A stretch of 64,000 nucleotides of DNA. Source: Pontibacter indicus (GTDB taxonomy: Bacteria > Bacteroidota > Bacteroidia > Cytophagales > Hymenobacteraceae). Below, piece by piece: positions 15,413 through 21,485 of the stretch. The notes under the pieces are model-generated. The model made no database searches. It was not told the DNA's origin and saw only the letters and a program-made list of their open reading frames with translations. Location: assembly GCF_900156345.1 (NCBI RefSeq), contig NZ_FTPP01000002.1, positions 310,001-374,000 of the forward strand, given 5' to 3'. Every line of letters starts with the position of its first letter. The first letter of the stretch is position 1. Position numbers and translations under genes: made by a program.

Positions 15413-15619
15413 CAGAATACTCAAATTTTTGCATAATTTTTATATCTATCTGATAATCAGGTAAATAATTTTAATTTCGCCTCTTCTCTTTCCTTGCTTT
15501 TTCCTCCTTTTATAGGTTTTTCAGGCTTTACAGAGATGTTCTGTGTGCTATACCTGGCGACTGGATGGTAGTTCGCGCCGCTGAATAAACTTCGTTTACT
15601 TTACTCAAGGCATAAAAAA

Positions 15620-15660
15620 GCAGCCGGCAATGCGTCTTTATCCAGTGCGCTGCCGGCTGC
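15620..15660 (-). terminator. Rho-independent terminator of gshB
   Basis: A perfect 10-bp stem (GCAGCCGGCA / TGCCGGCTGC) is followed on the minus strand by CTTTTTTATG. It lies 24 bp past the stop of the GshB-like gene and closes the three-gene operon. Confidence 0.85.
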
Positions 15661-15683
15661 CTCCAATCGATTCAAACTCAGGT

Positions 15684-16733
15684 TTAGATCATCGCCACTG
15701 TTTTATTGTCGATCTGCCCGCCATAGGTTTTCTTGTAATGCACTTTGCGCTCCAGGGCTTCGATAACAGGTATAGAAAAGTCGACTCCCTCCAGGTTGCT
15801 GGCCGTTGGCATGCCGCCCGGGCTGAACACGTTGATTTCCATGAGCTTATCGCCCACAATGTCGAGCCCAACCATGAACATACCGTCCTGAATAAGTTTC
15901 GGGCGCACCAGCTCTACCAGGTCCAAGGCGGTCTGGGTAATTTTGGCCGCTACGGCAGAGCCGCCGGCGTGTATATTGCTGCGGATGTCGTCTTTGCTGT
16001 TGACGCGGTGCATGGCGCAGTACTTGCCTTTGTACTGCAGGGCCTCGCCGTTCACCACAAAGAGGCGAGTATCGCCCTCAGAGGCTTGCGGCAGGTACTC
16101 CTGTGCAATCACGTAGCCGTCGCGGCTGATGGCCTCCACAATCTGGTTGAGGTTGGTCGTGTCGTCCTTCTTTACCATAAACACACCCGAGCCGCCTGAG
16201 CCCTGCAGCGGCTTGAGGATGATGTTGTTTTTCTGCTCGTTGAAGAACTCCTTAATCTCCTCTTTGTCGCGGGTGATGAGCGTGCGGGGGCGCACCGCTT
16301 CCGGGAAGTGCTGAAAATACATCTTATTCACGGCGTCGGAGAGGGAAGTCGGGTCGTTGAGCACAATTACGCCGTGGCGCAGGGCCAGCTGACCGAAAAT
16401 AATTCCTGCGTTCTGGGCCCAGGCACGGCCCTCGCCTTCCGAAGAGGGATCGTTGCGCAGCATCAGCACATCCAGCTCGGGCGCCGTTACGCGCGTCTGT
16501 TTCGCCTTCGGCCCCTGTATGGCCTCCAGAAAAGTGGCTGGCGTCTTGTACTTCTGCTTCGAGTCGGCGAGCACGGCGGTGGCGCCCATGTAGCCGTCCG
16601 GGTAGTAGGCTAGGTCGCCCACGCCCATCAGCAGCACCGTATGCCCCGCATTGTGCATGCGCTGCGCCAGGAAGATGGTGGTATGGTCAGGTTTTTCTGT
16701 TTTTACGTCGTTTACTACAAATCCTATTGTCAT
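15684..16733 (-). CDS. gshB: GshB-like ATP-grasp ligase (glutathione synthase family)
   Basis: This 349-residue ATP-grasp enzyme is related to prokaryotic glutathione synthetase, which joins gamma-Glu-Cys and Gly. The N-terminal pre-ATP-grasp domain starts IGFVVNDV. The ATP-grasp core has ILKPLQGSGGSGVF (nucleotide loop), GDTRLFVVNGE, the RSNIHAGG substrate loop and the metal-binding FMVGLDIVG...EINVFSPGG. Length and motifs match GshB. It lies 25 bp behind the DUF1704 gene in a three-gene unit, and no gshA is in the window. The true acceptor may not be glutathione; glutathione is uncommon in this phylum. Confidence 0.82.
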   Translation of the reverse strand: MTIGFVVNDVKTEKPDHTTIFLAQRMHNAGHTVLLMGVGDLAYYPDGYMGATAVLADSKQKYKTPATFLEAIQGPKAKQTRVTAPELDVLMLRNDPSSEGEGRAWAQNAGIIFGQLALRHGVIVLNDPTSLSDAVNKMYFQHFPEAVRPRTLITRDKEEIKEFFNEQKNNIILKPLQGSGGSGVFMVKKDDTTNLNQIVEAISRDGYVIAQEYLPQASEGDTRLFVVNGEALQYKGKYCAMHRVNSKDDIRSNIHAGGSAVAAKITQTALDLVELVRPKLIQDGMFMVGLDIVGDKLMEINVFSPGGMPTASNLEGVDFSIPVIEALERKVHYKKTYGGQIDNKTVAMI

Positions 16734-16758
16734 GTCTATATATCAATGTTTATCGGGA

Positions 16759-18615
16759 TTAATTTTCCAGTAGGTTAAATACTGTAATCCCTGCTTTTAG
16801 TTTTTCCAATTTGGGTTGCACGGCCGGGTCGGTAAGGTAGCGGGGCCGGATGGGGACGGGCCGCAGCACCTGCCGGTAGATGAGCTCCTGCACAATGGGA
16901 ATATACTCCTGCCGGATCTTTCCGATCAGAAGCGGCTCCAGCTCGTTGCCCTCTTTCAGGTAATGCAGCAGGTGGACGAGCCCGCGCAGGTATACGGCGT
17001 CCTTCGTAAGCCCACCGCCGCGGTGCACGCGCATGGTCACGTTAAAGGCCGTCTCCTCGCTGAACCTGTACTCCTCTTTAAGCCGCAGGAAATTGTCGCT
17101 AAAGCTGCAGCCTTTGATGAGATGATGCACTGTCACGACGCGTGCAGCCAGTATGCGCAGTCGGTCTTGGTCGAGGCCGCCCACAAGGTATTCGCTCAGC
17201 ACGGCGAGGCCTTCCTGTAGCTCTTCGTAGCCCGGCGCGCCCACATACAGTTGCTGCAGCGGCTGGGCCTTGCCATTGAAGTACGTGAGAATGTGCGTGC
17301 CCACCTCGTGCTGAATCAGCGCCTCGGCGCGGTGTCGCGGTATTTTGGCATCGGTTCCGATGTTTAGCCTGCCTTTGGATACGATTAGCCCGACAATGTC
17401 CTTGCGGATGTCAACCCCCGACTCAAGTGCCGGGTACTGGCTTTTGAGGTAGGCAATTTCGCGCTCGGCCAATGTGGCAAACTCGTCGACAGGTATAAGC
17501 GGCACGTCTTTTTCGCGGGCGGGCTCTGGTATGGCAGCCAGTATGCCTTCGGCCACCTTCAACAGTTGCTCGTCCACGCCGCCAAACAGCTGCAGACTGC
17601 TGTACAGAAAGTGCGGCGTGTTGCGGTCGGCCAGCATGGTCAGGGTCTTGTCGAGCTCGCGGCGCTTGTCTCGGAACAGATAGGCCAGTGTCGGGTCCTC
17701 CACCTTCTCGATGGGAATGTTGTAGAGTTTGCGCTTGAGCAGGTCAGCGTCGATGGGCATGAGGCGGTAGTGGAAGTTGGGAGCCTCTCTGAAGCGTTTC
17801 ACGCGGAACTCCTCCCAAGCCTCGTCGGCATTGATGGGCGTAACCAGCAGCAGAAACCGGAACTGGTCGCTAATGGAAGTGAGCTGCCGGTCGATGCGCC
17901 AGACGGCGGGCACCACGGCCTGCCGGCCCAGCGCCTGAAAGTGCTTGGGATGGTGACTGGTCTGCACGCGCACGAAGTCGAACACGGCCTTTTTGATGGC
18001 GCTCGACACATGGCTGCGCAACGTGCGCTGCAGCAGGGGGTATACCTGCCCCGAGCCGGCCTGGCGATAAATGGGTTTGAGCTCGAGTCCGAGCATCAGC
18101 GTACTGTGCTTTTTCAACTCCTCTTCGCTCATCAGGCTGTTGGGCCCCTCCAGCAAAGTCTGGTTAGAAGCCGTGGTCACCGTAACGGGCAGGTTGCTGA
18201 TCTTGATGCTGGCCAGTTCGTTCTTAAGCGTACGAATGGTGGCGGGCAGTGCTTCTTCAGGTCCGAGCACCCGGAAGGTCGAGCTGTCGGCGGCGCTGTC
18301 GTCGGGAGCGGCCAGGAGCTCGAGTATCATAAAAGCGCCAAACTCATCAGCCATGGCTTTCGCTATCTCGCCTATCAGCTGCCGCAGTTCGGGCGTCTGC
18401 TCTTCGCGGGCAATGATGTAGGCAGCCTCGGCTTTTACGAAGTCGGCGGTGGCATGGTCGGGTTGGCCTGCCGGGTGGCGGAAAAGCACCAGAAAGGGCA
18501 GTGGCCGGTCGATGTGCAGCAGACCTCCCTCGGGCAGTCTTCTGCGCACCTGCCGGCCGCGCTTCAAGCTCCGCACAATGCCTTTGATGAAAATGTCAGA
18601 AATGGTGTCGGTCAT
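16759..18615 (-). CDS. DUF1704 'QEGLA' putative zinc metallocarboxypeptidase
   Basis: This 618-residue protein of the 'flavohemoglobin expression-modulating QEGLA motif' (DUF1704) family carries HEVGTH (about residue 434) and ELQEGLAVLSEY about 30 residues later, giving a zinc site with two His and the Glu of QEGLA. A human DUF1704 protein (KIAA0895L/MATCAP) is known as a tubulin tyrosine carboxypeptidase, so a C-terminal peptide-trimming role is plausible here. The start is set at 18615, where ATGA overlaps the upstream stop; the longer start at 18726 would run 111 bp into the upstream gene. Confidence 0.85.
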   Translation of the reverse strand: MTDTISDIFIKGIVRSLKRGRQVRRRLPEGGLLHIDRPLPFLVLFRHPAGQPDHATADFVKAEAAYIIAREEQTPELRQLIGEIAKAMADEFGAFMILELLAAPDDSAADSSTFRVLGPEEALPATIRTLKNELASIKISNLPVTVTTASNQTLLEGPNSLMSEEELKKHSTLMLGLELKPIYRQAGSGQVYPLLQRTLRSHVSSAIKKAVFDFVRVQTSHHPKHFQALGRQAVVPAVWRIDRQLTSISDQFRFLLLVTPINADEAWEEFRVKRFREAPNFHYRLMPIDADLLKRKLYNIPIEKVEDPTLAYLFRDKRRELDKTLTMLADRNTPHFLYSSLQLFGGVDEQLLKVAEGILAAIPEPAREKDVPLIPVDEFATLAEREIAYLKSQYPALESGVDIRKDIVGLIVSKGRLNIGTDAKIPRHRAEALIQHEVGTHILTYFNGKAQPLQQLYVGAPGYEELQEGLAVLSEYLVGGLDQDRLRILAARVVTVHHLIKGCSFSDNFLRLKEEYRFSEETAFNVTMRVHRGGGLTKDAVYLRGLVHLLHYLKEGNELEPLLIGKIRQEYIPIVQELIYRQVLRPVPIRPRYLTDPAVQPKLEKLKAGITVFNLLEN

Positions 18616-19427
18616 GGCGAGAGGGTTTTGCATACCTGTTCGCGTGCCGCCAAAACAGGTGCTATCGTGCTTTGCAGCGCTTTTCTGATTTCCTGTAGCT
18701 GCGCCTCGTCCGGTTTTCCCGTCCACTCGTCCATAAAAAACTTTTTAAATTCGATGGAGATGACGCAGGCGCGGTCCGGAAAGGTGTCATGGATCCAGCG
18801 CATGAAGTGGCCGCCCTCAAACTTGACATTCTCGCGCACGTCGAGGTGACGGTCCTGGTAGTTGTAGGCTTGCAGCGTCTGGGTAAAGGCCTCGACCACA
18901 GGAGCCCAAAGCTGGCGGTTCATGTTGCCGGTTCCCAGGTTCACTTCGGGGTTTTGCTGCGGGTCTGCCTCGGGCCCTTCGGCGCCATCGCGGCGGTGGT
19001 TGTAGGTATGCAGGTCGTACACCACAAAGCAGCCATGGCGGTCGGCTATACCTTGCAGCATCTCTTTCACATCGGCATAAAACCGGTCGTAGCGGGCCAG
19101 CGACTCCTGCGCCAGTTCTTCGGGTAGATCGTCTTTCCAGACGGTGAGGCCCCAGGCATCCTCGGGCTTCCGGTAAATGGCTTTCTCGCGTGGGCGGTTC
19201 AGGTCCATTTCGAAGCGCGAGTTTAAACCAATGATCTGGTTGTCGGTTATACTTACCCAGCCCGCCGTGAAAGGGTCTTCTTCGCGCAGCCGCTCGTCGG
19301 CGTTAAGCGAGAAAAGGCTGCTGATGTTGTCGCGCACGATATGGCCGTCGTGTATGGCAGTGGCGATAAGGGGGCTTTGGCCGGTAGAAAGGGTATAATA
19401 GGGTGCGGTTTGCTTCGGATCAGGCAT
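18612..19427 (-). CDS. N-formylglutamate amidohydrolase family protein
   Basis: This 271-residue hydrolase of the FGase/HutG-type family (PF05013) cleaves an N-acyl-glutamate-like amide using a metal. Diagnostic stretches are SRFEMDLNRPR (about residue 71), VYDLHTYNHRR (about residue 140) and the late ENVKFEGGHFMRW. No other histidine-degradation gene is near, so N-formylglutamate may not be the real substrate. It is the first gene of the operon and overlaps DUF1704 by 4 bp. The start at 19427 has weak context. Confidence 0.85.
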   Translation of the reverse strand: MPDPKQTAPYYTLSTGQSPLIATAIHDGHIVRDNISSLFSLNADERLREEDPFTAGWVSITDNQIIGLNSRFEMDLNRPREKAIYRKPEDAWGLTVWKDDLPEELAQESLARYDRFYADVKEMLQGIADRHGCFVVYDLHTYNHRRDGAEGPEADPQQNPEVNLGTGNMNRQLWAPVVEAFTQTLQAYNYQDRHLDVRENVKFEGGHFMRWIHDTFPDRACVISIEFKKFFMDEWTGKPDEAQLQEIRKALQSTIAPVLAAREQVCKTLSP

Positions 19428-19842: not shown

Positions 19843-19907
19843 CAACGCTCGCTTTTGCATAATGCATCCGCTGCCTTATCTTTACAGGAAGAGAATAAGG
19901 TTTGCAG

Positions 19908-21485
19908 ATGGAAAACAGTTATGCAGCAGTGGCCTCCGAAAAAGAGGATCACCAACTGCTGAAGATTTTAGGAGAGCATGCAGCATACGAGCCGGAAGCT
20001 GTACTGGCCGTGATCGCTGAGATTGAGAAAAGAAACCTACAGGCTCCGGATCTGGAGCAAATAAAGCAGGAAACCCTGCAAGCCCTCGCGCGGCAAGAGC
20101 AGCAGTTCAACCCCGAACCCACAGGGCCGACCTCTTTCACAGATAAATTGAAAGATTTCTGGACACTCTTTGTGCCGCAACAGCACTACTTTGTCACGCC
20201 CATTCTCGTCAATATCAACCTAGTCATTTTTGTACTGCTGGCACTGACAGGCATGCACGTACTCTCGCCCGAGAGTGAGGATCTGGTAAACGCGGGTGCC
20301 AACTTTGGTCCCTATACCTTAACCGGAGAGCCTTGGCGCCTTTTCACGTCCATGTTCCTGCACATTGGCATCATCCACCTGCTCGTGAACATGTATGCAC
20401 TGGCCAGCATAGGCGGTGCGCTGGAGCCCTTGGTGGGGCGCAGGCAGTTTATCACGGCCTACGTGCTGTGCGGACTGGCGGGCAGCCTGGTGAGTCTGTG
20501 GTGGGACCAGCAGCGCATCAGCGCCGGCGCCTCCGGGGCCATCTTCGGCATGTTCGGCATGTTCATGACCATGGTGCTGCTGGAGCGGAGCATGACCTGG
20601 GCCGAGAAAAAAGGCATGGTGTACAACATGCTGGGCGTCATTGCCTTTAACCTGATTTTCGGGCTGCAGGGAGGTATAGACAATGCGGCGCACACAGGCG
20701 GCCTGGTGCTGGGTATCGTGTACGGCGCTGTGCTGATGCTGCGCTCAAAAAGGTACTTTACGCAGCAGTATAACTGGGGTGGCAGCATCGCGACGGTGGC
20801 GCTGCTGCTGGTCGCTTTTGTGGGCCTATACCTGCAGGTGCCGACCGAAAACGCCCGTTACCTGACTGTGCTCGACCGCTTTGGCGAGCGGGAAACAGCA
20901 GCCATGCAGGTGATGAAGGAAATGGAAGTGGATGCCAGCCTGATCAATGGTGGAAAGTACCTGCCGGGGCTGGAGCAAGGTATAGCCCTGTGGGACGAGA
21001 GCATCAAAGAACTGATTGCGCTGCAAGAGTTGCCTGACCTGGGCGAGCAGCAGGCTAAGGAGGTGGAGATCCTGCTGAACTACACGCAACTGCGCAAAAC
21101 CTCCTATACCATGATGCGCGATGACATCCGGAGCAACCAGCCGTGGATGCACCAGAAGCAGCAGCGCGTCCTGTGGGCCATCGGCACCTATGTGCAGGAA
21201 CTCAACAACCTGCGCGAAGGCAAGCCCTCCCAACAGCACGAAGGCGTAAACGACCTCCCGCTGCCGGAAGCGCTGGAAGAAGTCTCGGGCCTTCCGCTGG
21301 TAGCACAACCGCTCATCGTGCTCGACGGCGAAATACTGGAAGGTATAGCAACAGCTGAAGTTGAGGACTACATCTCACCTGAAGAAATAGAGTCGGTAAC
21401 CGTGTTGAAAGATGAACACGCCTTAGCCAAGTATGGCGAGAAAGCCCGGAACGGAGTGATTGAAATTGTTTCGAAGCAGGAGTAG
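19908..21485 (+). CDS. Rhomboid protease with TonB-plug-like C-terminal tail
   Basis: This 525-residue protein has an N-terminal helical cytosolic segment, then a six-helix rhomboid core with FLHIGIIHLLVNMY, the catalytic Ser in SAGASGAIFG (about residue 210) and the catalytic His in NAAHTGG (about residue 262). A charged helical region follows. The last ~60 residues (LIVLDGEILEG, SPEEIESVTVLKD, ALAKYGEKARNGVIEI) resemble the plug motif of TonB-dependent receptors. ATG 19908 is preferred over TTG 19902. A rhomboid carrying a plug-like module is unusual. Confidence 0.88.
   Translation: MENSYAAVASEKEDHQLLKILGEHAAYEPEAVLAVIAEIEKRNLQAPDLEQIKQETLQALARQEQQFNPEPTGPTSFTDKLKDFWTLFVPQQHYFVTPILVNINLVIFVLLALTGMHVLSPESEDLVNAGANFGPYTLTGEPWRLFTSMFLHIGIIHLLVNMYALASIGGALEPLVGRRQFITAYVLCGLAGSLVSLWWDQQRISAGASGAIFGMFGMFMTMVLLERSMTWAEKKGMVYNMLGVIAFNLIFGLQGGIDNAAHTGGLVLGIVYGAVLMLRSKRYFTQQYNWGGSIATVALLLVAFVGLYLQVPTENARYLTVLDRFGERETAAMQVMKEMEVDASLINGGKYLPGLEQGIALWDESIKELIALQELPDLGEQQAKEVEILLNYTQLRKTSYTMMRDDIRSNQPWMHQKQQRVLWAIGTYVQELNNLREGKPSQQHEGVNDLPLPEALEEVSGLPLVAQPLIVLDGEILEGIATAEVEDYISPEEIESVTVLKDEHALAKYGEKARNGVIEIVSKQE

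Follow-up and report, generated by a model that had tools for sequence, protein, structure and literature searches.

Enzyme pairs in which an ATP-grasp ligase works against a peptidase have been described in several settings. The Rim system (RimK and RimB), which polyglutamylates ribosomal protein S6, and the Rlo system, an ATP-grasp/polyGlu-protease operon that controls hypo-osmotic tolerance in Pseudomonas (PMC12239564), both join an ATP-grasp ligase to a glutamate-cutting protease. In eukaryotes, the ATP-grasp enzymes TTL and TTLL are opposed by the MATCAP/TMCP peptidases, which are deglutamylases in humans and Tetrahymena (PMC10499314). Here, we analyzed a 64,000-nucleotide stretch of Pontibacter indicus DNA (contig NZ_FTPP01000002.1, positions 310,001 to 374,000; "the window") in which a bacterial MATCAP relative shares an operon with a GshB-like ATP-grasp ligase and an N-formylglutamate amidohydrolase family enzyme (FGase). 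Our tentative reading, to which we give a probability of about 0.4, is that this trio works in the cytoplasm as a module that makes and trims a short peptide or tail, likely rich in glutamate or acidic residues, and so serves salt and divalent-ion adjustment. The features, in window coordinates, are as follows.

18612..19427, minus strand: FGase, an N-formylglutamate amidohydrolase family zinc amidohydrolase (PF05013), 271 amino acids, operon gene 1
16759..18615, minus strand: MATCAP/DUF1704 metallopeptidase (PF08014; "QEGLA" family), 618 amino acids, operon gene 2
17920..18615, minus strand: FGase-like dead domain, the N-terminal third of MATCAP (about residues 1 to 232), assigned by hhalign, fold match, and lost catalytic residues
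15684..16733, minus strand: GshB-like ATP-grasp ligase (NF009110), 349 amino acids, operon gene 3, with RimK-like RSN..GG and SPGG motifs
15606..15672, minus strand: intrinsic-terminator-like hairpin with U-run downstream of the GshB-like gene, assigned by folding against shuffles and by reading the sequence

The operon and its conservation

As the sequence-only reading had proposed, the three genes are tightly packed and followed by a terminator. The FGase stop codon (18614-18612) and the MATCAP ATG (18615-18613) share the letters ATGA in a 4-bp overlap, and a 25-bp gap (16734-16758) separates MATCAP from the GshB-like gene. We took the ATG at 18615 as the MATCAP start; a longer open reading frame with a GTG start is open to 18726. 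The hairpin at 15606-15672 folds at -29.4 kcal/mol (z = -4.3), and 0 of 200 shuffles were equally stable. A simple terminator scan of the window missed this hairpin, its long loop being the probable cause.

The trio was widespread. In a draw of 296 genomes across phyla, PF08014 was found in 16, with FGase and GshB beside nearly all of them. A species-level scan (one genome per species) gave at least 576 MATCAP relatives, the best 80 of which came from Bacteroidota, Planctomycetota, Acidobacteriota, Poribacteria, Kiritimatiellae/Verrucomicrobia, Calditrichaeota, Gemmatimonadota, Campylobacterota, and delta- and gammaproteobacterial lineages. The closest named relatives among the matches listed were Pontibacter species (MATCAP 93% identity). 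Of 50 genomes sampled from the genus, 39 had PF08014, and about 100 genomes sampled from the remaining genera of the family all lacked it. In this sample, Pontibacter is thus the one genus of its family with the module.

To count linkage, all open reading frames were taken at 95 loci, and a neighbor was defined as a gene within 3 kb. MATCAP and GshB lay together at 92 of the 95 loci, from about ten phyla, and all three genes at 73 of the 95, which are not independent cases because many come from close relatives (Pontibacter, Sphingobacterium). Loci lacking a separate FGase were mostly of two sorts: those from Flavobacteria, Litoribacter, and Algoriphagus, with an AstE/AspA-type deacylase gene adjoining GshB, and those cut by contig ends. 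Plasmids, both alphaproteobacterial ones and one whose record reads Roseateles, also carried the trio by itself; a trio is present on pSymB of Sinorhizobium meliloti (L122). When the three proteins were compared by their distance matrices, these correlated at r 0.83 to 0.87 (permutation maximum, 0.20), as joint inheritance predicts, with shared species history contributing too. Since the grouping recurs in about ten phyla, it is far beyond chance, and the trio is one conserved ligase-peptidase-deacylase unit. The earlier proposal that the three genes act as a functional unit is borne out by this linkage and by gene fusions: in Photobacterium sp. DA100 and at locus L023, an FGase with intact catalytic residues is fused to the MATCAP N terminus.

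Several loci depart from the simple arrangement. Three GshB-like genes stand in tandem in a Phycisphaerae bacterium (L053, 9887-13122), and MATCAP-GshB pairs are duplicated beside one FGase in a Rhodopirellula (L055, 7809-14992). In two flavobacterial loci (L024, 7088-14654; L025, 5142-12034), two different GshB-like genes flank FGase and MATCAP; both loci also carry genes for a glutamate/dicarboxylate symporter and a DCC thiol-oxidoreductase, and L024 carries a rhodanese gene. A Vibrio FGase-MATCAP fusion has no adjoining GshB (L119, 9449-11440), and the second histidine of its FGase domain is replaced by Y, hinting at a different use. An apparent MATCAP-GshB fusion at L032 (an open reading frame of 914 amino acids) was not counted, as MATCAP there occupies a separate open frame, 691 amino acids long.

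The three proteins and the dead FGase domain

The first protein is an FGase by profile, fold, and conserved zinc/catalytic residues. It scored 66.8 bits against PF05013 (cut-off, 28.9), and all 72 stand-alone FGases of the trios that were compared keep H26, E49, E50, R71, H140, and E226. A PDB sequence search with it returned no match, and FGases were found by fold search, in which its structure model (predicted local distance difference test score, 92.5) matched the FGase 2q7s with an E value of 1.4e-13 and a template modeling score of 0.71. It shares its fold and Pfam family with HutG-type N-formylglutamate amidohydrolases of histidine degradation. Unlike these, it does not lie beside hut genes here, has no NCBIfam match, and travels with MATCAP and GshB. 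The sequence-only reading had dismissed histidine use on the ground that no histidine-degradation gene is present. That premise stands within the window and fails for the genome, where whole-genome protein-family searches, our method for all genome-wide checks, found a urocanase outside the trio locus. We nonetheless set histidine use aside as an explanation, as the FGase is linked to MATCAP and GshB across phyla and the urocanase is located elsewhere.

The second protein, the single MATCAP of the whole genome, belongs to the MATCAP/DUF1704 family by profile (287.9 bits against PF08014; cut-off, 27) and by its HExxxH zinc motif, HEVGTH, which is accompanied by QEGLA. HExxxH is kept in 97 of 98 relatives and a QEGLA-type motif in 94 of 98. 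In structure comparison, residues 257-620 aligned with human MATCAP (7z6s/7z5g) over 292 residues (Z 24.7; root mean square deviation, 3.1), so that the peptidase fold and HExxxH site are the same as in the eukaryotic enzymes. From this kinship, carboxypeptidase activity on Tyr or Glu tails is predicted; such activity has been demonstrated for eukaryotic members only (PMC10499314). Unlike the eukaryotic systems, the trio has no tubulin, sits in one operon with an FGase, and carries an extra, dead FGase domain. The window protein scored 323.7 bits against the QEGLA equivalog TIGR02421, below the cut-off of 338.65, and the Photobacterium FGase-MATCAP fusion passed it at 459.9 bits.

The extra domain had gone unnoticed in the sequence-only reading. 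Against stand-alone FGases only, the N-terminal domain of about 230 residues gave a weak hhalign result (23%, E 9e-4). Its FGase-like nature became clear because fused FGases were added to the alignment (97.7%, E 1.8e-12, 210 columns) and because of the structure match: its best structural match was the FGase 2q7s (Z 13.5; root mean square deviation, 3.3; 181 residues; model residues 30-221). The FGase zinc/catalytic residues are gone from this domain in 89 relatives. Thus, the long MATCAP holds a catalytically dead FGase copy, and a live FGase is encoded upstream.

The third protein scored 182 bits against PF02955 (cut-off, 23) and 465.7 bits against NCBIfam NF009110 (PRK12458 subfamily; cut-off, 408). 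Among solved structures, it is nearest to E. coli GshB (1gsa; E 1.6e-66), with which it has overall sequence and domain layout in common. It differs from GshB in falling below both glutathione-synthase equivalog cut-offs (217 against 272 and 199 against 299) and in its substrate-side motifs: the trio ligase has RSN..GG and SPG, as RimK-type glutamate ligases do, whereas GshB has RGN and SPTC. EIN or EVN followed by SPG was found in 63 of 67 trio ligases. Motif comparison with RimK-type ligases thus predicts a glutamate ligase activity. Compared with Rim and Rlo, which share the RSN..GG and SPG motifs (RimK) or the hypo-osmotic setting (Rlo), the trio is of GshB type in its ligase overall, has an additional FGase, and lacks the transglutaminase-like RloB. 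Its peptidase is the MATCAP zinc enzyme, the only one in the operon, rather than a retropepsin of the RimB/RloA kind.

The gene content of the host genome also makes glutathione unlikely. The earlier claim that gshA is missing holds genome-wide: no PF04262 match exceeded the cut-off in the whole-genome family search, and the sole GCS2 protein, encoded in another operon, fell far under every glutamate-cysteine-ligase cut-off. A bshC gene is present, and given this gene, bacillithiol is likely the thiol of the host. The GCS2 protein belongs to a second overlapping operon (L035, 7520-11000; L002, 395-3817; contig C8 near 1.034 Mb) that forms another ligase and FGase module, in the order RimK-like ATP-grasp protein with an RLAN domain (485 amino acids), GCS2 carboxylate-amine ligase (426 amino acids), and a different FGase (241 amino acids).

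Ion-channel neighbors and the response to salt

Besides the trio, clustering of neighboring genes returned response regulators, MscS, amino-acid permeases, CorA, MgtE, and Castor/Pollux-type channels. We compared three of these families at 39 independent loci with a background counted genome-wide in 39 genomes (227 MscS, 47 CorA, and 54 MgtE matches). MscS flanked 8 of 39 loci against 0.59 expected (Poisson P 2e-7), CorA 5 against 0.11 (P 1e-7), and MgtE 4 against 0.15 (P 2e-5), P values that are optimistic because the families were picked after inspection and cluster with each other. At least one of the three was present at 14 of the 39 loci against 0.85 expected, a more than tenfold excess. 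Some arrangements were operon-like: MgtE lies inside the trio as MATCAP-MgtE-GshB (L063, 3831-8227), MscS and CorA come straight after GshB (trio-GshB-GshB-MscS-CorA, L053), and a third locus reads trio-MscS-permease (L051). In a Calditrichaeota locus (L065, 1125-3437), genes for an OmpA-family protein and a TrkA_C-domain protein (K+ channel regulator type) lie upstream of the trio; members of the same two clusters lie upstream at L067.

Published expression data point to the same setting. In RNA-seq of Photobacterium damselae at 1% versus 3% NaCl, RS17020 (GshB) was up 38.4-fold and RS17025 (QEGLA) 27.5-fold at low salt, and the same table lists RimK (52-fold), MgtE (5.4-fold), and a Na+/H+-dicarboxylate symporter (7.8-fold) as up too (PMC10308900). 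RS17020 and RS17025 probably correspond to the GshB and FGase-MATCAP fusion of Photobacterium sp. DA100. Genomes from lower salinity are richer in glutamate-modification ligases, Mg2+ uptake, and mechanosensitive channels (PMC10219603). A salt/ion-homeostasis setting is therefore supported by two independent lines, neighbors and expression. A proteomic study of salinity in three marine bacteria does not name the trio genes in its main text. Within the literature searched, the bacterial operon came up in a single transcriptome table, and no paper on its function was found. A 2009 amidoligase survey may reportedly mention such neighborhoods.

A rhomboid protease gene divergent from the trio (window 19902-21485, plus strand) appears unrelated; the C terminus of its product matches the SusC/RagA plug-like signature region.

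Substrate and proposed cycle

Of the chemistry first suggested for the operon, building and trimming a Glu- or Tyr-containing peptide or tail, we infer that it fits best, given the RimK-like motifs of the ligase and the deglutamylase and detyrosinase relatives of MATCAP. In the proposed cycle, the GshB/RimK-like ligase would draw on ATP to extend a carboxyl acceptor by an amino acid, probably glutamate, and MATCAP would take C-terminal residues off again. The FGase would strip an N-acyl cap or release the final acyl-amino acid; in Flavobacteria, the AstE/AspA-type deacylase may do this instead. The dead FGase domain probably docks partners. At low salinity, free glutamate would be drawn into oligomers, lowering the number of osmotic particles while keeping the negative counter-charge for K+ and Mg2+; at higher salinity, glutamate would be set free again. 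The glutamyl nature of the product, the substrate, the direction of flux, and the osmotic or charge-buffer purpose are all offered on this conditional basis. Set beside the sequence-only reading as a whole, this retains the functional unit and the chemistry, drops the histidine premise, and adds the physiological setting that was missing. Neither of the findings that were to refute that reading arose, as the genes stay linked across genomes and gshA is missing.

Several observations weigh against this proposal. The similarity of the ligase to GshB fits non-glutamate substrates equally well. The enrichment statistics are optimistic, as stated above, and neither MscS, CorA, nor MgtE flanks the trio at the window's own locus; most Pontibacter, Sphingobacterium, and alphaproteobacterial loci likewise have the trio without an adjoining channel gene. 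The P. damselae pair is tied to the trio through adjacent locus tags and the sister species DA100, and the expression comes from one species in one study, where about 1,800 genes respond (PMC10308900).

A small molecule and a protein tail both fit as substrate, and the main rival is modification of a protein tail. Here, the ligase would add and MATCAP remove C-terminal amino acids of a cellular protein, with the FGase supplying or clearing the amino acid, much as TTL and MATCAP act on tubulin or RimK and RimB on ribosomal protein S6. MATCAP relatives do work on protein tails opposite ATP-grasp ligases, the ligase has RimK-like motifs, and RimK was co-induced with the GshB/QEGLA pair in P. damselae (PMC10308900). 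However, no gene for a target protein turns up repeatedly at the loci, and partnership with FGase and AspA-type small-molecule deacylases suggests a small substrate; we regard the idea as possible but doubtful. An acylated or amidated dipeptide osmolyte, made or degraded by the trio in the manner of N-acetylglutaminylglutamine amide (NAGGN), would suit the osmotic setting of the neighbors and the N-acyl-amino-acid hydrolases within the unit. The NAGGN pathway uses an Asn-synthase-like amidotransferase plus an acetyltransferase/ATP-grasp synthetase, and shares with the trio an ATP-grasp peptide ligase, a peptidase, and an osmotic context. Possible tailoring genes do occur: an asparagine synthase gene directly upstream of MATCAP-GshB-AspA in a flavobacterium (L108, 3804-5498), the only such gene near a trio apart from one near L115 that belongs to its cluster, and, at another locus, a gene for a glutamine cyclotransferase that lies downstream of GshB (L095, 10836-11801). 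Yet a family search found no amidotransferase or acetyltransferase domain of the NAGGN enzymes in the core unit, and induction in the sole data set is at low salt, the opposite of what a compatible-solute pathway should show; a net role in removal would lift this objection. This makes a compatible-solute pathway unlikely.

We give still less credence to glutathione or related thiol metabolism, in which the ligase would be a glutathione synthetase and the hydrolases would recycle gamma-glutamyl compounds. It would account for E. coli GshB being the nearest solved relative, for the passing of one of the two GshB cut-offs by class-B ligases, and for some flavobacterial loci having rhodanese and DCC thiol-oxidoreductase genes nearby. 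Glutathione synthesis was rejected on the missed equivalog cut-offs of the window ligase, the absent gshA, and the presence of bshC; glutathione itself is unlikely in the host because gshA is lacking, the lone GCS2 protein is far below the cut-offs, and bshC is present. In addition, the plasmid copies of the trio stand alone without gshA. Least probable of all is a cell-wall role, with the trio editing muropeptides or adding amino acids to peptidoglycan precursors and so affecting turgor resistance. AmiC and Csd4 do belong to the same zinc-peptidase/amidase group as the FGase fold, the osmotic setting is compatible, and a D-Ala-D-Ala-ligase-like ATP-grasp gene lies near L062, with genes of the same cluster near L029 and L050. 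However, no signal peptide or membrane anchor was obvious on direct reading of the FGase, MATCAP, and GshB-like sequences, and mur or penicillin-binding-protein genes do not recur nearby.

Returning to the make-and-trim module, a wider form of it is speculative, and we consider it rather unlikely: that in about ten phyla a glutamyl-polymer or tail cycle works as an osmotic and ionic buffer with channels and Mg2+ transporters, and that the MATCAP/ATP-grasp pair is the bacterial counterpart, perhaps the forerunner, of the tubulin tail code. Current labels, "flavohemoglobin expression-modulating QEGLA motif protein" for DUF1704 and "glutathione synthetase" for its partner, mislead pathway reconstruction. 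Seen as a trio, the three families acquire a common context and a likely chemistry, along with a condition under which to test them (low salt, hypo-osmotic shock, or Mg2+). If the product is indeed a glutamyl peptide, bacteria would have a new means of tuning their charge and osmotic load, and human MATCAP, a tubulin carboxypeptidase, would fall within an older ligase-peptidase partnership.

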